From NCBI GenBank assembly GCA_037447655.1, contig JBBHKE010001099.1, positions 213,349-277,348 on the forward strand: a DNA stretch of 64,000 nucleotides, written 5' to 3'. Each line of letters begins with the position of its first letter. Positions within the stretch are counted from its first letter, which is position 1. A program made the translations under genes and the position numbers. The notes beneath the pieces are model-generated. The model worked only from the letters and a program-made list of their open reading frames with translations. It was not told the origin of the DNA and made no database searches. Positions 6,524-59,639 of the stretch are shown here, one piece after another. This DNA is from Zygnema cylindricum (taxonomy: Eukaryota; Streptophyta; Zygnematophyceae; Zygnematales; Zygnemataceae).

Positions 6524-6819
6524 TACTACCGCTAGATTAAACGGCTAAGGCTACCGGCTATTTCGTGTCTGCCGGCCGGCAGGTACAAGGATCAAATCCT
6601 GCCGCCGGCACATACATTTTAATTAAATAAATAAACCCTAATATAAAATTCTCGTAAACCTCAGGATAGCCAAGGGAGCCATGGCTCTAGCTTCCTCTCC
6701 AATTTCTCAGTGACTGCGACAAGTTTGAGAGTTGGAGAGAGATGTTAGAGATAGACTGCCTCGACTTCTATATTTCTTTTCAGACCTAGAAAATACTAAT
6801 AAAACCATTAGTTTCTACA
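6524..6819 (-). mobile_element. Copia-type LTR fragment with antisense tRNA-like module
   Basis: The end at 6819 matches the 5' end of the Copia-type LTRs seen elsewhere in the window (minus strand starts TGTAGAAACTAATGG). The left part carries a tRNA-like B-box (ggatcaaatcc, 6589-6599) and 3' end on the plus strand, as in the other LTRs of these families. The rest of the LTR and any internal region are missing. Confidence 0.7.
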
Positions 6820-8734: not shown

Positions 8735-8746
8735 TGGTATCAGAGC
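8735..8746 (+). promoter_or_regulatory. Primer-binding site (initiator tRNA-Met type)
   Basis: Perfect TGGTATCAGAGC, the canonical Copia/TRIM primer-binding site. It is bracketed by a direct repeat, agcacttgatcgatt at 8711-8725 and 8744-8758. The internal region that should follow on the plus strand is not recognisable as gag. Confidence 0.6.
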
Positions 8747-11160: not shown

Positions 11161-12227
11161 CGTTTGTATGGTGTTTCAGATGTGTCTTAATTGAATAAAA
11201 GATAGCATTGATTAGATGCGGATAATTTTGCATCCCATGAATGAATGTAATCAAAACTCAGGAAAACTTCAAGTTGTGTTTTTGTTTTTTAGCATTTTTA
11301 ATGTGTAAATTATTTGATAGCCAATACTCAAACACACATTTAATGACGTCATTAAGCGAATGAACAAGTTAATTCCATAGTAGATTCATGACCCACATAA
11401 AAATGGAAATCCTGCTCGTTACATTGAAAGAAAGAGATTTTAATAAGCAACCCTACAAAGTTATAAATAATAAGAGAAAACTCTAAGGGTGTACTACTTC
11501 AACTGTACATTGGAAAAGATGATAAATAGTTTTATCTATAAATGCCTCATGAATCTATAATCATGGACAAACTCGCTAGCTGACATTTCATGAATGAGCA
11601 ATAAAACTATTTAGTATGCTTATACATGTCTTTTGTGTTTATTCCTTCTTATATTGAAAGTTACACGCTATTCTGCATGTGTACCAACAAAAATTCCCGC
11701 ACTTTTCTTGTTGGCATATATGCTAAAGGGCATGTATTTTCCCATACAAAAACATTAAGGAAATAAAGGCATCTGAAAAAGGCGTTTGAACTTCTTTTGC
11801 CTTGATTAATAGTATAGGGGATTCTTCAACTATGACATGCCACACCCAAGATGATGAAAGCCCATATTTCCAAATTAATTATCCGGAAACCAAAACCTTG
11901 ATTTTTGTGGCCTCTTCTTTCATCTCATTATCAGAACTTGAGACATCTGAAGTCCGTACAGGTCCTTTAAACCAACGCCTCGCATCCACGGCCCACCAAA
12001 GGAGAGCGAGAGTCATCACTGTCGTAAAAGCTGCAAAAATCCACAAAAAATCCTCTAATATTTCTGTTTTTTTTTTTTTTCCTCGCCATGTAATGATAAA
12101 TTAATTTATGTGATAATTATCATGGTTGTACGAAAATTACTTCAACAGTCAGAGATCACCTATTTTCCTACATCTGTTAAACAGTAATTACTTTCTCATC
12201 CCTATTAGTCGTGGTCCAAACCATGAA
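11161..12227. other. Intergenic DNA downstream of the permease gene
   Basis: AT-rich and without a recognisable gene; it holds the 3' flank (and presumably the 3' UTR) of the minus-strand permease. A plus-strand frame at 11802-12104 has no homology that I recognise. Confidence 0.4.
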
Positions 12228-15200
12228 CTAAGTATGTCTGTTTAAAGTTTTTTTAAAGGAATGAAGTTGATAAGCTTTATGCAAAACATAAGTTAATGTG
12301 GTATGTGATATTCTGACCCTGTCAATAAATCGCATTAAATTGAAAAAAATGATAATAACAAAAATTGAAACAATAGTGGTGAATATTATGCCAAAAACAG
12401 GAAGTTCAAGAAACACATTAGAAACGTATAGATCAGGTTCGTCGGGTACGGATGCCATACCAATGGAACCGTAATTGAAGTTGTCGATGTTAACGGGGTA
12501 CATTGTCGGTACCATGAAAATGATCATTGTGTAAACTACATAAACGATTGAAACGACACATAAAGGCTTGGTAAATCCACCGAGGTGAAATGGACCGCGT
12601 TTAAACTTCGCATCATCCATAAGAAGACGAGCTAGAATGGGCATCAAATAGGTTCCTAAATATCCTACGGCTGCAACAGAAGCAATAGCATTGAAGGCCA
12701 CCATTGATCTGTATGAAAAAGCATATAATTTCATGTTTGTTATATTCTCATCGTAAACAATAAGAAGGTTGAATAAGACCATACAGAAAACACACAATAA
12801 AGCTACTAAGGCATTCTTGGATGTGTAAAATCATCATTGCGAAAGGGAGGAAAATGAAAAAAAACTTTACCCGAAATTGTGAAGAACAATAAAGATTTCG
12901 GCGATGGCAACAAACCACGACGCGCAAACTGGAACTTTAGCTTTTGTCGAAACATAAGAAAAAATAGAAGGAAATGGCATCGCTTTATCTCTTGCTTGGG
13001 CATACACATGTCGTGCAGCTCCCAAAGCTCCACTTTGACCTGAACTCTTCCAGTAAACCCAAAAAAACTCTTTAAACGAAAAAAAGCTTGTTGCTTCACG
13101 ATACTTTACATGGAAAACACCCAGAAAAAGCATTTTTATGGAGGTACTGGGTCAATGTTACTTCTCAAAGCTGAAAATTGTTACACACCATGCATTGAAA
13201 AATGATAATGTAGTGGATATTATACATATACCAAACGAATAACAGGGAAAAAAAATTATACCTGAAGCAAAGAAGGGTATGACCATCAAAATTAGAAGAA
13301 TGTATGCTCCAGTTCCGTTTCCGTATCGTTTATGAAACGCATCATATATAATTTGTGCCACTGGATATCGACCTCCGGTCGCATTTTCTGGCGAAAAGAG
13401 ATCGCCCCAATATCCCTGGCATCCAAAGAAATATATTTTCATGGTTTTCTAAATTTGAATGGTTTTTGGTTAAGCGTTGGGCCCAAAATATTTCACAACG
13501 ACAAAATTCATTTCCATGAATGAGAACCTATGGATCAATATGAGTGAGGATGTGGAATAAGAATCCTAAAATCAATTTCACAAGTCATGAGGAACATTAG
13601 AATATTTGACATTTTATCTCCAAAAATGTCAATTTAAATAATATTGATGGCGATCGCCCCAATTCTAGTTCATATAAATTTCCAATGCGAATTTCAATGT
13701 TAATGTCAATTCGAATGACATACTTCAATATTAATTCGAATGCCAATGTCCATGCCAATTTTTACAGTTAATGTCAGCGACAATTTTATTCCAGTTTTAT
13801 TGTTAATGCCAATGCCAACGGCAGTTATTATTGTTAATGTCAATATCCATGTCAATGCCATTTGTCCCTGTTAATGTCAATATGAATCAATGCAAGTTTT
13901 ACTGATGATGTCAATGTCAATGCCGATGACAATGCCTATGCTACACAAGGATGCCTTAGTGCACCTAATATCTGTAAAGATGACTTTAAATGCTTGTAAA
14001 TATTTGAAATTTAAGAAAATTCAAATCTGGATATTAATTGTTTTGCATATTTTTTGTTTTTGTCGAAGCCTATATTACTGTCAAATTGAACACTGACGCC
14101 AATCAGGTCCAGACATCAACGAGACTCACCTGAATAGAAAATGTGAGTGCGTTTAGTAGGGAATAGCCGAGAACAATCTCCACAAAAATAGAAATCATAA
14201 TAGCTTTTGGTGCTGATCGATCTGCATTTTTTGTCTCTTCTGTTATATAAGCGGCCGCATCGAAGCCAAAGAAACAGAAATGGGGCAAAAGAGATGCAAA
14301 CATCCAGTTAAAACCCGTTCCATGTACCCCCGTTATTGTTGAGCTTGTCTCCCAATGTTTGTACACATAGGATGCTTTCTGGTGAGTTTGTGCGACGGCT
14401 GGAAGTACGATGCACAAAGCAATTACATACAACGGAATGAAATACGCATAGAAATTTAGAAAGATAGAGGTCCAACGGATATTGAGAGAGTTGATACAAG
14501 CCCACGAGAGTACAATAGCACAATATATCGCGAAAAATACTCCTTTACTTGCCCAGTATCCACCGCCATTAGCTCCCCCAGATATGAGAAGGATGATTTG
14601 TTGAATAATTTGAGCGGCTGCATGCAAAAAACACAAAATTAAAACGGTATTATGATCAACGACATAATGAGCTTAAAATAAAGATCCACATTTGTCAAGG
14701 GCGTTTCACACGAACTTCACCTTCGCATGCTCTTGCTATACAACCGCCGATACTCGAGTTTGTTTTAAAAATAAGCACGTGTTTGTTTTCCATAAGGACA
14801 TGAAAGTCACTGAAATTGTCCATTGTACCTGGGAGCCTTTTGTGATCACAAAACGCTAACAGACCTGTTTTCAGTTTTCTTCCCGAACTGAAAACTTGAC
14901 CAGTAGAGCTTAGTTCTTTGCTACTATTATTACATACGATAGCCAAACGGAGGACTCTTAAAAAAAAGACTCTTTGTAACAGTGGCCATCTGAGGACACT
15001 GTTTACCCGGGTATGCCACGCTGGCGTTACCGACAGTAACGGCGACCAGTTGGAGCCAAGCGGTAGTCCAAGCCACCAGTGGGGCCCACTGTGGAGAACT
15101 CATACTCGCCGCCCAAAAGTACAGCGCGCCAGTGGTCTGCAAATGTTCGGAAATTAAATACAAAAACACGAATAGTCTCATCAGCAAATAGTATCTATAT

Positions 15201-15857
15201 GGTGGCTGTACCGTTAACCTGGAAGCGGAGCATCGGTAATTGTGCAAGCATGTACTTCAAAATATTACAAGGGAACAAGCCAATAACCGAGAAGGAGGTA
15301 AATTACTTGGGAAAGTGGTAAGCTGCAGGAAACGAGGTAACACGCAGGAAAGTGGTAAATTACCATAAACTAGGGAAACACTTAAGAAAGAGGTGAATTA
15401 CCGGGAAAGAAGAGGAAATTTCTGCGAGGCAGAGGCCGACGCAGATGACGAATGCGACAACTGGCCACCAGGGCCACATTACGGCCAAAGGACCTCCGTA
15501 ACTGAGAGCTATGGCGTAGAATGGTACCACTGTAATAATGGGATTCATTACGGATACTGACATACTGATGATCTCCACCAAATTCTGGGTAAGAACATGA
15601 AATCGGGACACAGATTTCAGCAGCTAATTCGAGATGGCTGTTGTGTAGTATGTTGAATCTAGAACCGAAAAACTGGAAAGACTGACAAAGAAAAAACCAA
15701 TTTTACATAGAATTGGACTTACCAGTTCTCGTCGGAGCTCTTGTTTGTAACCGAGTTCCATGAGACGTTTTTCGGAAGGATCCATGAAGGAGGAAGCGTA
15801 TTTTTCTGACGAATTCGGCAGGACAAGACCACCCTTCTCGGCTTTGTTTTCTTCCAT
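12228..15857 (-). CDS. APC-superfamily amino-acid permease (BAT1/Uga4-like), 7 exons
   Basis: Predicted membrane transporter for amino acids, GABA or choline-like substrates. Joining exons 15857-15723, 15584-15402, 15136-15007, 14617-14130, 13415-13262, 13039-12871 and 12708-12228 gives 579 codons plus stop, with GT-AG at every intron (138, 265, 389, 714, 222 and 162 bp) and every phase matching. Length is typical of the family, which has 12 membrane helices. Visible hallmarks are the polar N-terminus ending LGYKQELRREL, the first helix with ALSYGGP, AEISSSFPTTGALYFWAA across introns 2/3, and EETKNADRSAPKAI at about residues 276-289, the family signature after helix 6. GQSGALGAARHVYAQARDKAMPF crosses intron 5, and KFKRGPFHLGGF lies in exon 7. 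The start is the first in-frame ATG. A plant-style bidirectional amino-acid transporter or a fungal GABA/choline permease are the closest analogues; substrate cannot be read from sequence. No disabling change is visible. Confidence 0.93.
13650..13935. repeat. Degenerate short repeats in permease intron 4
   Basis: Within the 714-bp intron, many imperfect units of the type aatgtcaatgccaatg. It resembles a decayed simple-sequence array. Similar word composition recurs at 50840-51010 and, inverted, at 51400-51890. Confidence 0.7.
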
Positions 15858-33300: not shown

Positions 33301-34380
33301 CAGACCTAGAGAGCAAGGTAGACCGAAGACATTCATAGCGAGGAAAAGGTCTCAGATGTCCGAGGAATTAGTTCCCATGGCGTGTGTCTTTGATTCCCTT
33401 GCCAAGGATCCATTAGGGGAACCCTTGCTTGTACGTCCGCCCAGTTTGACTCCTGAGCAGTTCACACCCTTGGGCGACGCTTCTTGGGCCCAAGCCAAAG
33501 AAAGCAAGAAGTCTTCTCCAACTGCTAGCCGGAAAGGGTTGGCTCACAAGGAACCATTCTCCGGTCACTTCTAGAAGTGGGGTTCCATACTAGGTCTAAA
33601 GTTCCTTGGGCTGAAATCCTGATAGATCCGGAGCTTTTGGCAGATCACCGTCGCCCTGGTCTTAAGAAACTCCTTGCCCTTCACGATCTGCACAAGTTGA
33701 AGGTGAAGAATGTGTCCGTTCAGAGGGTAGCTCGTACAGATCGAGCTCGGGTAGTTCGGCCACTGGGAGGGATAGTGGAGATTTTGAGTAGTTCTTCAGA
33801 AAGTAGGGATAGTGGAGATTTTGAGTAGTTCTTCAGAAGGTAGTTCCTCCCAGTTTGCACCAGAAGGGTACCGGACTCACGCCCTCAGACCACTCAATCT
33901 CAAGATACTACTACAAGTTGGCAGTCCCACGGCTGAACCACTTCTTTCTCCAATTTCTCAGTGACTGCGACAAGTTTGAGAGTTGGAGAGAGAAGTTAGA
34001 GATAGACTGCCTCGACTTCTATATTTCTTTTCAGACCTAGAAAATACTAATAAAACCATTAGTTTCTACAGTTCACACCGATGGTGAAGGAGGAAACGTT
34101 TCCTCCTCCCGCAATAGTCGTACCGGGGAAGACTCCTCAAGTTGCACGAACCGTTTGACCTTCGGAAGGATTATGCCAGACAAGACCTACCGACCAAGAG
34201 GTTCTGGGTATGGGTGGTTCCGGGTATGGGTATAGCGGATTTGACTAGTATCGTCAACATGGCTCAAGAGCTGGTAGATATTGTGAAATCTCAGGGCCAG
34301 ACTACGGCGGGGGCCGGACCCGTTTTTGTAGATTGGGAAGCATTATGTTTTCCATAGCCATTTTCAACCATGGATTTACC
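33300..34380 (+). pseudogene. Decayed plus-strand retroelement gag remnant
   Basis: Several short frames in the same direction, all plus strand. 33577-33828 is Leu/Lys-rich and ends in a 35-bp duplication that repeats a DSGDFE-coding unit. 34142-34357 contains FWVWVVPGMGIADL. Composition and neighbours suggest a retroelement gag, but no domain is diagnostic. Confidence 0.35.
33948..34070 (-). mobile_element. 123-bp Copia LTR-start fragment
   Basis: Almost identical to 6698-6819 and to the inverse of 43834-43956. It corresponds to the first 125 bases of a Copia-type LTR (minus strand starts TGTAGAAACTAATGG). Confidence 0.75.
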
Positions 34381-42639: not shown

Positions 42640-44600
42640 TGTATTTGTTTGATAACGTAAAGATACATGTAATATTATCAGCTGCGCTCCACTTAAACCC
42701 AAATGTTGAAAAGATATTGTAAATGAAATAAGACATAAAAGTAAAAATGGATAAATACAACAATAGGCAAGGTGGAAGAAAAAGAAAGGTCAACGACTTA
42801 GCTAGTTATGCCGGTGGATGGCCACTAGGCACCAGGGTCTATTTATATTCCTTGCAGAAGTTATCTTTTTGATGAAAATCTGAATTTAGACTTAACAAGA
42901 ATAAATCGAAATAGAAACAACTGAGACGGAAAAAAGCAAAAACTTAAAACGACAATATGCAAAACACTTATCAGGTTTGAGATAACCAAACTCAAAAGAT
43001 GCGTATAAGCCAAATATAAATAATACACAATCACAAGAAATAAAAGCAACAAAACGATATTCTCAACATAAGACTTCCACACTAATTGATGTTCAACCAA
43101 AGTCGGGAAAAAAAGTTTGTGTTATGAAGACGCGATTGAAATCCACTCAAACGGACGAAAATAGGTGAAGGGAAACCGTGTAGGTCTTGGCCGAAGCCGT
43201 ATACATTAATATGTAAGGCTTTACAAGAGATTGATAATGGAATAGAAACTAGACGCTTCACGCTAAGGCAGAAAATTGCCTCTAAGCTGTCCAGACAATT
43301 TTACAAAGAAAAAGATGGCAGCATAAAATCTTTAATACTGAAAATAATATCAATAAATAATTCCTGCACTTGAAAATTGTGACCATGAAATAATCTAAAA
43401 TGAAATAAGTAACAAAAATTATGCCAAGCGAAAACAGGCAAATCAGAGTACAACATGCTATATAAGTATTTGCATCTAGTTTGGATTCAGCCAATAGGAG
43501 GCCGAAATCTTATGGCCTACGTTACAGAATCTATAACCTACGGATTAAAACCCTTCCTATCTACGTGTGAACGCATGAACCTCCTAATGGTTCACGAATT
43601 AAAATGGTCCAATCACGTTGCTTCGTCATAACTAACAGCTAATTTGTTTATCACTCGCGTAAACAGTCCAGATGTTGTAATTCGAACTGAGTATTAATCT
43701 GCACTAACGGTCAAAATGCTTCTCACGCGAAACGATCAAATTTGTCGTCGGCCGGGATTTCGGGAAATGAAAGTGGGTACGGTAGGACTTTTGGTACGGT
43801 CCAATTTGTAGCCGCAAGAATTTTGAACAATGTTGTAGAAACTAATGGTTTTATTAGTATTTTCTAGGTCTGAAAAGAAATATAGAAGTCGAGGCAGTCT
43901 ATCTCTAACTTCTCTCTCCAACTCTCAAACTTGTCGCAGTCACTGAGAAATTGGAGCGGCCACCGTTAGTATGTACGACCGGCCAACGTAAGTATGTACG
44001 ACCCTGCGAAACCCAATTACACCCGAATGCAAATTAGTGTAGCGGTTGCCGATCCTAAAACCTAAATATAAACAATTAAAATGGCCGACGAGATGCGGCA
44101 TTACAGCTGTCGTGCATGTTTATGATAACGTGAAGATGCATGCAATATAATCAGTTGTGCTCCCCTTAAACCCAAATGATGAAAAATATTGTAAATAAAA
44201 TAAGACATAAAAGTAAAAATGGATAAATACAACAACAGGTAAGGTGGAAGAAAAAGAAATATCAACGACTTAGCTGGTTATGGTTAGGTCGGTTTATTCC
44301 CCCCCCCAACTCTTTATTTAGCAGAGGAGCTGGCCAACACGACCGAAAGCTCGCGACATCCGTGGCGAAACCAGTGACCATCCGGAACCGCCAACAATGG
44401 TGGCACCTAACACTCCATGTGAAACCCTTTATTGAAGTGATCACAAAGTAACATGGTAGTCTCCCCGTCCGATCAATGAGAAAAGGTACATGCTATCACC
44501 TTCGTAATCAGCATCCGCATAGGATCCATATCCTGAGACAAAACTGGTAAATAACATGGAGCACAATTCTTGGAGTGCTCCCAAAATCTCAGCGTGTCCG
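42640..44600 (-). mobile_element. 3' end of a second gag-protease (Ty3-like) element
   Basis: From high to low coordinates, minus strand. 44600-44312 encodes the end of the protease frame: GFHMEC and then LAVPDGHWFRHGCREL, ending SSSAK-stop, aligned with GFPMEC...SSSTD-stop of the nested element. A poly-G tract follows. Next comes an LTR-terminal block (44108-44280), an LTR core ending ggcattaca at 44105, and again the terminal block at about 42640-42850. The rest of the element is missing. One in-frame TAG interrupts the short protease piece. Confidence 0.65.
43834..43956 (+). mobile_element. 123-bp Copia LTR-start fragment, plus orientation
   Basis: Starts tgtagaaactaatggtttta and ends gagaaattgga. 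It is the inverse of 33948-34070 and nearly identical to it. It sits inside the LTR of the gag-protease element. Confidence 0.75.
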
Positions 44601-44605
44601 CTCTA

Positions 44606-44713
44606 TAAAAATTGATGGTTATTTTAGTATTTTCTAAGTCTAAAATATAGTGCACAAAAAAGAAGCCGAGGCAGTCTGACTCTAACTTCTCTCTCCAACT
44701 CTCACACTTGTTG
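44606..44713 (+). mobile_element. Copia LTR-start fragment fused to pol
   Basis: Reads aaattgatggttattttagt... to ttgttgcagtcac. It is the first part of a Copia LTR in plus orientation, joined directly to the truncated minus-strand pol of the next element. Confidence 0.65.
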
Positions 44714-45308
44714 CAGTCACAAGTGGGATAGAGGGTAATCTCGGGTTTCTCCGAACAACTTCACCTTCTCCCCTATCCGTGGAGTCCATCTCCGGTCGTT
44801 CATCGTCCATTTCGCGTATTTCCTTGTTTTCTTCCTCGGTTTCAATCGGAAGTTGTGACTCCAAGAGAGGGTCACTCTCAGTCAGATTTTTCTCTTCCTC
44901 TGCACGGTCACGCTGAACCGGATTTCGGTTAGTAGAATCAGCATCTAACTCACTTTCGGATTCAATTCTAATTCTGACCGGTTTAGTGTACTTAAAGGGA
45001 TCTATGGATTTTCCTTCATCCATAACTACCAAGTATTTTACTAGAAGTATGTCTTCTCTTCCGAGATCATAAACTCCATACCCTTTTACGTTATCATCAT
45101 ACCCAAGTAAGTATCCGGGCTTTCCTCTAGCATCTAACTTCCAATCAGATTTTTCTGTGTTTAAACTACACACTTGACTTCCAAACACTTTTAAGTGTGA
45201 TATGTTAGGTTTCCTCCCAGTCCATCTTTCATAAGGTGTTTGACCTTTTACAGCTGAGGTAAGGACTCTATTTTTGAGATAGTTAGCACAATTCAAGCTT
45301 CTGCCCAA
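44682..45308 (-). pseudogene. Copia integrase C-terminus and linker to RT
   Basis: Encodes LNCANYLKNRVLTSAVKGQT and then PYERWTGRKPNISHLKVFGS, the GKGY/GYLLGYDD segment, and an acidic Glu/Asp-rich linker that normally precedes RT. The frame is shifted by one relative to the integrase core at about 45300. The reading stops at 44713, where pol is cut off; the RT and RNase H are lost. Confidence 0.85.
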
Positions 45309-45850
45309 AAACTTTTCCTTATCTTTTTATCCGTCAACATACTACGGGCACTATCACTTAATGTCTGATTTAGTCTCTCGGCTACACCATTTTGTTTTGG
45401 GTTCTTTGGGACAGTCTTTTGGTGTTGAACCCCTTCCTCTTTCAAGTAATCCTCAAACTCATTAGAAGTGAATTCCCCCCCATTATCACTTCTCACTCTC
45501 TTTATAGGTGTCTCATGAAGCTTTTCACTCCATGATTTATATTCCTTAAAATAAGCCGAAGCCTCAGATTTGTTTTTCAAGAAATATACTCTAGAGTATC
45601 TAGACCAATCATCAATGATAGTAAGCATAAATCTTTTTCCTCCAACTGATGGCACTTTGGTCGGTCCCCATGTGTCAGTGTGAACCAAATCTAAAACCTT
45701 TTCACCCTTATATGTTGCGGCTTTTGGAAAAGGCAATCTGTGGGCTTTTCCTTGAGCACACCCACTACAATCATCCAAAGTCTCATTATCTCCAAAATAA
45801 ATGCCCTCAACTACACCCATTTTCTCATTTCCTTTAATCTATCTAGATGC
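45293..45850 (-). pseudogene. Copia integrase catalytic core
   Basis: Zinc-binding half (CSGCAQGKAHRLPFPK) and rve core. The first catalytic Asp is in DLVHTDTWGP, the second in RSDNGGEFTS, and the Glu in NGVAERLNQTL. All three DDE residues are present. Ends FWAEA, followed by a frameshift. The upstream GAG-pre-integrase part (WHKRLGH-type) is in another frame at about 45880-45830. Confidence 0.9.
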
Positions 45851-54080: not shown

Positions 54081-54518
54081 GCTCATCCCTCCTTCTACAG
54101 AAACATTCTCGCAAAGAATGCTAGAAAAAAGTGCAGCTTCTCGCAAAGAATCCTAGAAGAAAGTCCGCTGCAGCCAGTCACTTGAGCTTGATCTGCAACA
54201 TCCAAAGTGAGTGCACTCCCACCGCGCGTTCTTCCGGGATACCCGTAATTTGTTCTCGGAATCATGGATGGAAGAGGACTTGACTTTTGAAGGTTTAGAG
54301 AAGTGAGTGCGCTCCCCCGCTCATCCCTCCTTCTACAGAAACATTCTCGCAAAGAATGCTAGAAGAAAGTCCGTTGGAGCCAGTCACTTGAGCTTGATCT
54401 GCAACATCCAAAGTGAGTGCACTCCTACCGCCTGTTCTTCCGGGATACCCGTAATTTGTTCTCGGGATCATGGATGGAAGAGGACTTGACTTTTGAAGGT
54501 TTAGAGAAGTGAGTGCGC
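54081..54518. repeat. 238-bp duplication inside the protease pseudogene
   Basis: 54081-54318 and 54319-54518 are direct copies starting gctcatccctccttctacag. The first contains an extra short duplication (ctcgcaaagaat twice, 54109 and 54142). The 238-bp period is not a multiple of 3. Confidence 0.85.
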
Positions 54519-55218
54519 TGTCCATAAAAAAAACGCTGACGTCACTCCCTGCTCTGAGAGACTCTTGCCACGTGTTGTGACTATGATAGCCAACGTAAAC
54601 AACGCCGTCACTCGCGTAGACAGAGCGCACACTAGAGTTCCATGCTCCGTTCTGTCAAGCGGAAACTAACAGCGGGTTTCCCGGACCGAAGTACCAGTAG
54701 TTCCCTTCGGTGTCGTACAAACAATGAGCCGACGTCATAACATTTCGTGACAAAAGTAACGCGCCGAAACACAAGGCGACCCAGCCGCCACCATTCCAGA
54801 TTCTCAAAGAGACAACTGCGGAAGAAATGCCAGAATCTTCAAAGGTTGGGACAACTACGGAAGGAGGAGTTCCCCTATTGCATCCGAAAAGTTGACTTGC
54901 TTGATTAATATTCCCCGACTGGTTGTTAATATTCCCCGACTGGTTGGCATTAATCGAAGCTTTACCTGTGTTTGTGAAAACTATTGTGGAGGGGTTTCCG
55001 GGGGAAGGAATGGTCTTTTAACTGATAATAGAGTTGATCTTGGCGCGACTTTGCCACAATGCTGACTTCTGGTAATTGATTTTGGTTTTGGGCTGAGGAA
55101 CACAACTACTCGGAGGAGATTCCAACAACTCTCGAGGATCGAATTCCGTGGCACATATTATTGAGGATTGGCGATATTCAACATATCGCATGGGCGCCAA
55201 AGTGAAAAATTTGGAAAA

Positions 55219-55290
55219 TGGCCAAGCCGGGGATCGAACCCGAGACCTTGGGTTACCCGTACAAAAGCTCTACCAATTAAGCTACCTGGC
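55219..55290 (-). tRNA. tRNA-like gene in TRIM 3' LTR
   Basis: The minus strand folds as a cloverleaf. The acceptor strands GGCCAGG and CTTGGCC pair 7 of 7 (one G-U). TA at positions 8-9 and the D arm GCTT-aattggta-GAGC pair. The T arm TCGGG-TTCGATC-CCCGG pairs 5 of 5 (one U-G). The variable loop is 5 nt. The anticodon stem is weak (TTTGT with ACCCA, 3 of 5), and the loop ACGGGTA lacks the invariant U33; the anticodon position would read GGG. The A-box and B-box are well kept. Probably a tRNA-derived sequence serving the element rather than a translating tRNA. Confidence 0.6.
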
Positions 55291-55434
55291 CGATTAAGAA
55301 TACAAGCGCCTGAAACTGAATTTACGGCAAAGAACAGCGCACTAGCGAAACCAGCATTTACTACGAAGTGGACATTCCTCTAACACGCCCCCTCACGATG
55401 TACTCCATCTCGTGTGGCTTGCCAACGCCACCTT

Positions 55435-55446
55435 GCTCTGATACCA
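55435..55446 (-). promoter_or_regulatory. TRIM primer-binding site
   Basis: Perfect TGGTATCAGAGC on the minus strand, immediately after the 5' LTR; complementary to the 3' end of initiator tRNA-Met in plants. Confidence 0.9.
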
Positions 55447-55509
55447 TATTGAGGATTAGCGATATTCAACATATTGCATGGGCGCCAAAGTGAAAACTTT
55501 GGAAAATGG

Positions 55510-55580
55510 CCAAGCTGGGATCGAACTCGGGACCTTGTGTTAGCCGTACACTAGCTCTACCAACTGAGCTACCTAGCGGA
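55510..55580 (-). tRNA. tRNA-like sequence in TRIM 5' LTR (decayed)
   Basis: Same module as in the 3' LTR. The D arm GCTC-agttggta-GAGC is perfect, and the anticodon stem has a 4-bp GTGT/ACAC core around ACGGCTA (anticodon position GGC). The T arm has GAG-TTCGATC-CC with mismatches and lost a base; acceptor pairing is partial. Together the two LTR copies look like diverged descendants of one intact tRNA gene. Confidence 0.55.
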
Positions 55581-55799
55581 TTGTGCACGCAAGCGCCTGA
55601 AACCGAATTTACGGCAATCAACAACGCACTCACGGAACTATAATTTATTGGGATACATACGTATGGAGTCCGAAGTGGACATTCCTCCAACACATACGAG
55701 CGAGGAGAGAAAACAAATAGTTAAAACCAGTAATAGAATAGATTTGAGATTGGGACATGGTTTCTAAAGGAGAGCCATCGAGAAAGGAATACGAGAGAA

Positions 55800-58772: not shown

Positions 58773-59462
58773 TTAAATTTTTTCCATTGATTTACTTAAA
58801 ACAAGCAAATCATCAACATTAATTGCAATAAATATAACATCTTCCTCATCTTCAAAAACATAGATTGAGTGATCTGAGCTGATCCGGATATATCCTTGAC
58901 CGGTAAGAAACTCATCAAGTTTCTTATTACACTGTCGAGGCACCTGTTTCAAACCATAAAGGGATTTAATCAGCCAGCATACCTTACTCTTCTCTCCTTC
59001 CTCCACAAATCCTTCGGTTTGTCGCATGATGATCTCCTCTTCCGATTCTGGATGCAAAAAGGTTGTCTTGATGTCCATCTGGTGCACCTTAATGTCTTTC
59101 GCTGCAACCACACTAAGAAGTATGCGGACGGAGGGAAATCTGACGACCGGGGCAAAGGTTTCATCGTAGTCGATTCCTTCTTTTTGTGTAAATCCTTTTG
59201 CCACTAATCGGGCTTTTTTACGCTCAATGGTGTTATCTAGGTTAACTTTTATTTTGAAGAACCACTTACAACCGATTGGTTTTGGATTAGGTGGACAATC
59301 CACTAGCTCCCAAGTATTGGCTGCCAAAATTGAGGCCATCTCCTCGTTGATGGTTGTCTTCCACCGGTTCCTTTCTGGACAAATCATCGCCTCTCCATAA
59401 TTCTGAGGTTCATCTTGATGAGATAGTTTTGTTACCTTGTTATTAACCTGTTTTTCTTGCAA
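58773..59462 (-). pseudogene. Copia reverse transcriptase
   Basis: Encodes NTWELVDCPPNPKPIGCKWF, ARLVAKGFTQKEGIDYDETF, APVVRFPSVRILL and MDIKTTFLHPE with the first catalytic Asp. KSLYGLKQVPRQCNKKLDEF follows, then the INVDDLLVL active site (family FVDD/YVDD). Open over 229 residues but shifted relative to RNase H and integrase; the last part of RT (about 58770-58605) is in other frames. Confidence 0.9.
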
Positions 59463-59639
59463 TCTTTTGGTACTTCTCCTTCCCCCCTCAAAATTGTGGC
59501 TGAAATAGATGGTTCTCGTGGGTTCTTTCGAACAATCTCGGCTTCTCTCCTGCCCTTTGATTCCGAATCAATTTCCACTACGTCTTCCGCTTCGGGTAGA
59601 GTAGTCACTGGAGTTGCCGCAGCTGAGTCTTTTTTGGTC

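Follow-up and report, generated by a model that had tools for sequence, protein, structure and literature searches.

A probable Helenus-type TRIM with tRNA-derived sequence in both LTRs in a likely zygnematophyte alga

A 534-bp element lies on the minus strand at positions 55159-55692 of the 64-kb window (the whole stretch of DNA that was analysed). We consider it likely that this element, which probably resides in a zygnematophyte alga, is an old insertion of a non-autonomous LTR retrotransposon of the Helenus (TRIMp3) type, and that the tRNA segment of its LTRs is, or was, a Pol III promoter. Helenus is the name that Kojima 2024 (PMC10886601) gave to TRIMs with tRNA-derived sequence in their LTRs, which are grouped there with Cassandra and Ajax as TRIMp3. 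Because TRIMs with a tRNA sequence in both LTRs have been described under that name, the claim of the sequence-only reading that the arrangement was undescribed fails: the element is not a new kind, and what is new is its host group (as far as the literature was searched) and its family. Sequence analysis of the window resolved the following parts:

55693..55697, minus strand: target-site duplication GTATG, on the upstream side of the 5' LTR
55447..55692, minus strand: 5' LTR, 246 bp (first bases TGTTGGAGG, last bases CCTCAATA)
55507..55578, minus strand: tRNA-like sequence of the 5' LTR, degraded copy (LTR positions 115-186; Rfam RF00005, 28.5 bits)
55517..55571, minus strand: A box (TAGCTCAGTTGG) to B box (AGTTCGATCCC) of the 5' LTR, pattern match
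55386..55446, minus strand: interior, 61 bp
55435..55446, minus strand: primer-binding site (PBS) TGGTATCAGAGC, perfect (12/12), the first 12 bases of the interior, at the 5' LTR junction
55388..55394, minus strand: purine tract GAGGGGG, two bases (CG) ahead of the 3' LTR
55159..55385, minus strand: 3' LTR, 227 bp (first bases TGTTAGAGG, last bases CCTCAATA)
55219..55291, minus strand: tRNA-like sequence of the 3' LTR, better preserved copy (LTR positions 95-167; Rfam RF00005, 43.2 bits)
55230..55284, minus strand: A box (TAGCTTAATTGG) to B box (GGTTCGATCCC) of the 3' LTR, pattern match
55154..55158, minus strand: target-site duplication ATATG (one mismatch), on the downstream side of the 3' LTR

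The anatomy read earlier from the letters alone is borne out in its lengths (246 + 61 + 227 bp), in its perfect PBS and purine tract and in its near-perfect 5-bp duplication, the two flanks agreeing at 4 of 5 bases. Both LTRs start with TG, and the 61-bp interior leaves no room for genes of mobility proteins. We take the PBS to be a perfect complement to the 3' end of the plant initiator tRNA-Met. The weight of this site lies in its place at the LTR junction. The 12-mer by itself occurs about as often as chance predicts: allowing up to 2 mismatches, it matches three times in the window (two of the three perfectly), where shuffles predict 3.32. The second perfect TGGTATCAGAGC, at 8735-8746 on the plus strand, may belong to a different LTR element as its PBS, and its likeness to the element described here is limited to 13 bases. 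The two LTRs share the same base in 194 of 226 ungapped columns, with a Jukes-Cantor distance of 0.157 (85% identity over 202 bp in a within-window similarity comparison), and given this divergence the insertion looks old. A search of the 64-kb window found no further sequence with the LTR or the interior of the element.

The tRNA-like sequences of both LTRs lie on the element's own strand, in the sense orientation that had been claimed for them. A covariance-model check, proposed with that claim, was made by searching the Rfam tRNA model RF00005 (gathering score 29) with cmscan: the 3' LTR copy passed well above the gathering score, but the 5' LTR copy fell just under it, with an E-value of 0.0013 in a 1-kb scan, and was not among the matches when the whole window was scanned. 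The 3' LTR copy has fully paired acceptor (7/7), D (4/4) and T (5/5) stems, the acceptor and T counts being those noted before, and keeps 3 of 5 pairs in its anticodon stem; for the 5' LTR copy, which is shorter by one base near the T arm, the counts are 6/7 for the acceptor, 4/4 for the D, 2/5 for the T (by fixed positions) and 4/5 for the anticodon stem. With default settings, ARAGORN found no tRNA in either LTR; at a threshold lowered to 90% it called both copies, as Thr (ggt) and Ala (ggc). Read by fixed positions, the 3' LTR copy has GGG as its anticodon, and both copies have C at position 33. Neither copy takes a cloverleaf shape in its minimum-energy fold; the z value is -2.17 in the 3' LTR and +0.49 in the 5' LTR. 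Between the LTRs, 61 of 72 columns are identical inside the tRNA-like part and 133 of 154 outside it, so that this part shows no greater conservation than its surroundings. Descent of the LTR segments from a tRNA is well supported by the covariance and box matches, whereas a working tRNA is not, because the anticodon arm has decayed, the two LTRs are discordant and the folds are not cloverleaves. Such elements can seed false tRNA predictions.

The A and B boxes are the best kept feature common to both tRNA-like copies. A pattern combining the two boxes matched twice in the window, both times in the LTRs of the element (in agreement with the boxes noted earlier in the 3' LTR), and not once when the window was dinucleotide-shuffled 200 times. 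Box A reads TAGCT...TTGG in both LTRs; box B reads GGTTC in the 3' LTR, whereas the 5' LTR has AGTTC, which differs at one base. The tRNA part most likely is, or was, a Pol III promoter and not a working tRNA: the boxes were kept while the anticodon arm decayed, which a promoter fits better than a tRNA, and the disagreement between the LTRs and the single-strand folds argue in the same direction. The score of the 5' LTR copy below the Rfam gathering score and its broken acceptor, anticodon and T pairs count against the explanation that we prefer, and so do the equal conservation of the tRNA-like part and the remaining LTR and the lack of a further copy in the window.

From these features we infer Pol III use, an R region and a helper element, which may have worked together as follows. 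An internal Pol III promoter of tRNA origin (A + B boxes) would sit in both LTRs; transcription would begin near the 5' end of the tRNA-like part in the 5' LTR, cross the interior and end at T runs of the 3' LTR, within its tRNA-like part or beyond it, and part or all of the tRNA-like segment would then form the repeated R region for strand transfer. Priming at the PBS would fall to a cellular tRNA, reverse transcriptase and integrase would be supplied in trans by an autonomous element, probably of Copia type, and integration would create the 5-bp duplication. Lacking coding capacity, the element must depend on movement in trans; a Copia helper would fit the 5-bp length of the duplication, and Copia fragments are present in the window. 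Candidate terminators are found in both LTRs: the 5' LTR has T4 runs at positions 187 and 197, the first directly behind the tRNA-like part, which ends at 186, and the 3' LTR has a T4 run at 120, inside the tRNA-like part, followed behind it by a T4 run at 168 and a T5 run at 177. Because of the T4 runs standing directly behind the tRNA-like part of the 5' LTR, full-length Pol III transcription would need read-through; a Pol III stop at the 5' LTR run could give a short RNA only.

These T4 runs also bear on the main competing explanation, that the element is an ordinary Pol II-driven TRIM in which a tRNA or a SINE inserted passively and was copied to both LTRs by reverse transcription without taking on any role. 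We regard this as the less probable account, to be held at perhaps one chance among several. It draws on the T4 runs straight behind the tRNA-like part and on the inferential character of Pol III use, as well as on the equal conservation of the tRNA-like part and the rest of the LTRs; a possible poly(A) signal, AATAAA at position 44 of the 5' LTR, also speaks for it, though this motif is missing from the 3' LTR. However, both boxes persist in both LTRs, neither LTR has a match to TATAW, and the available text of Kojima 2024 (PMC10886601) gives an equal arrangement from fungi, animals and a lycophyte. A different role for the tRNA fold, in packaging, or as a tRNA-like RNA that primes reverse transcription, seems improbable to us. 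The fully paired acceptor, D and T stems of the 3' LTR copy would suit it, and with CCA added the 3' end of this copy fits the PBS at 8 of 12 bases; but 4 of those 8 are the terminal ACCA, the encoded 3' end alone fits at 4 of 12, and neither copy folds as a cloverleaf at minimum energy. The LTR's own tRNA part would therefore be a poor primer for this PBS, and the earlier suggestion that it primes is unlikely on these base counts.

Two further explanations concern the identity of the element as a whole. The two copies could be tRNA pseudogenes in a tandem duplication, with no retrotransposon involved: they are diverged and 61 bp apart, and the window has other direct duplications, one of them about 640 bp off. 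A simple tandem duplication is rejected because one junction has a perfect PBS and the other a purine tract, both repeats start with TG and the flanks are duplicated at 4 of 5 bases, which leaves this account very little credence. Membership in the retrozymes or in Cassandra has the least credence of all: a small LTR element with a PBS recalls both groups, which are TRIM-like and known from plants, but neither a hammerhead nor a 5S rRNA match was found up to E 1 by cmscan, in the 1-kb region or in the window, and both identities were discarded on this ground.

The Helenus-type reading, with a putative tRNA-derived promoter, agrees with the published description in layout, length, boxes and duplication, a likeness of described features at a single locus. 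In the available text of Kojima 2024 (PMC10886601), Helenus elements range from 311 to 1263 bp, and the non-coding TRIM described here (534 bp, under about 1 kb) falls inside this range; the Selaginella moellendorffii family Helenus-1_SMo has an LTR of 120 bp and an interior of 85 bp. The A and B boxes of Helenus are conserved while tRNA identity is mostly lost, most members having TRGCY and YGG in box A and GGTTC in box B; in our element the tRNA function is likewise apparently lost, box A agrees in both LTRs, and box B agrees in the 3' LTR and is one base off in the 5' LTR. As in Helenus, tRNA-derived sequence stands in both LTRs (the second match just below the gathering score), a PBS and a purine tract occupy the ends of the interior, and the duplication is 5 bp long (4/5 here), the length that the same source gives for plants and fungi. 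Helenus tRNA segments are said there to have no complementarity to the PBS, a statement to be set beside the fit of 4 of 12 bases, or 8 with CCA, in our element. The difference lies in the host: Helenus is reported from rust and some other basidiomycete fungi, from six animal phyla and from one plant, Selaginella moellendorffii, whereas this element probably lies in a zygnematophyte alga.

The analogy with Cassandra from which the sequence-only reading started was a sound one, since the element is a TRIM with Pol III gene sequence in both LTRs, and the work on Helenus set out from Cassandra as well (Kojima 2024, PMC10886601). Cassandra LTRs (PMC10853983 is a paper on this group) hold 5S rRNA sequence, while those of the element hold tRNA sequence without a 5S match. 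Ajax shares the TRIMp3 layout but carries a 5S rRNA fragment and is known, according to the available text of PMC10886601, from two nemerteans. With tRNA-derived SINEs the element has in common a putative internal Pol III promoter of tRNA origin; unlike them, it has its tRNA part within LTRs, together with a PBS, a purine tract and a flanking duplication. Kojima 2024 was the only paper on Helenus or TRIMp3 found, and neither its Table 1 nor the literature searched, mostly non-subscription papers, lists a zygnematophyte Helenus. TRIMs have been reported from Chlamydomonas, Volvox, Chondrus and Selaginella by Gao 2016 (PMC4717578), the main text of which contains no word starting with tRNA.

The placement of the host draws on a multi-exon, BAT1-like amino-acid permease gene on the minus strand at about 12.2-15.6 kb (12200-15600). 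The best matches of its joined exons are two eukprot proteins, 60% and 57% identical, which from their identifiers we take to be those of Mesotaenium endlicherianum and Spirogloea muscicola; among the matches listed, those labelled as land-plant proteins show 32-41% identity. In a tree that took in 19 of the 74 matches, the window protein fell in a clade of three with a Mesotaenium-type protein (99/97), nested in a clade of six (100/100) that excluded Klebsormidium and the land plants. Mesotaenium is a zygnematophyte, and the permease probably places the host among the zygnematophyte algae. A protein search with a single permease exon returned nothing at E 0.001 (86 candidates).

On this placement, the algal sister group of land plants includes a tRNA-bearing TRIM; Table 1 of the defining paper (PMC10886601) has none from these algae. 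It is tempting to speculate that the zygnematophytes, as that sister group, kept a lineage of TRIMs with a tRNA promoter, in which the tRNA-like segment serves both as promoter and as R region; we offer this as a tentative proposal, more doubtful than the identity of the element itself. If true, together with Selaginella it would mean that Helenus is old in streptophytes or has arisen there repeatedly. The element provides a second streptophyte case for the question whether such elements are ancient or reflect repeated capture of a tRNA or a SINE.

Pattern searches in public collections returned two isolated matches. A B box + PBS pattern (22 fixed bases, 31 gap lengths), for which about one chance match was estimated, had no match in viral contigs and one in genome contigs, in a bacterial contig (L001); an 18-mer from the LTR start had no match in viral contigs, and an LTR 17-mer had a single match (L002). 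We take L001 and L002 to be chance matches because BLAST of the element against both gave no match longer than 20 bases. As the collections cover viruses, bacteria and archaea, the missing matches say little on algae.

Several other repeated or mobile sequences were noted in the window. Copia-type fragments, all on the minus strand, lie at 675-1199 (gag), 44682-45838 (SH3-like and integrase) and 58773-59567 (reverse transcriptase); the last of these matched 3,533 proteins, the best 120 of the 3,533 being 39-53% identical and coming from many organisms. The direct repeat closest to the element, about 640 bp away, consists of two 176-bp copies (54138-54313 and 54344-54519) that are 96% identical and 30 bp apart, with no PBS-like match at up to 2 mismatches. 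Another repeat of about 123 bp occurs in three copies (6696-6819, 33947-34070 and 43834-43956), 98-100% identical and in both orientations. Finally, a fragment like eukaryotic large-subunit rRNA (69.1 bits) lies at 2785-2973 on the minus strand.
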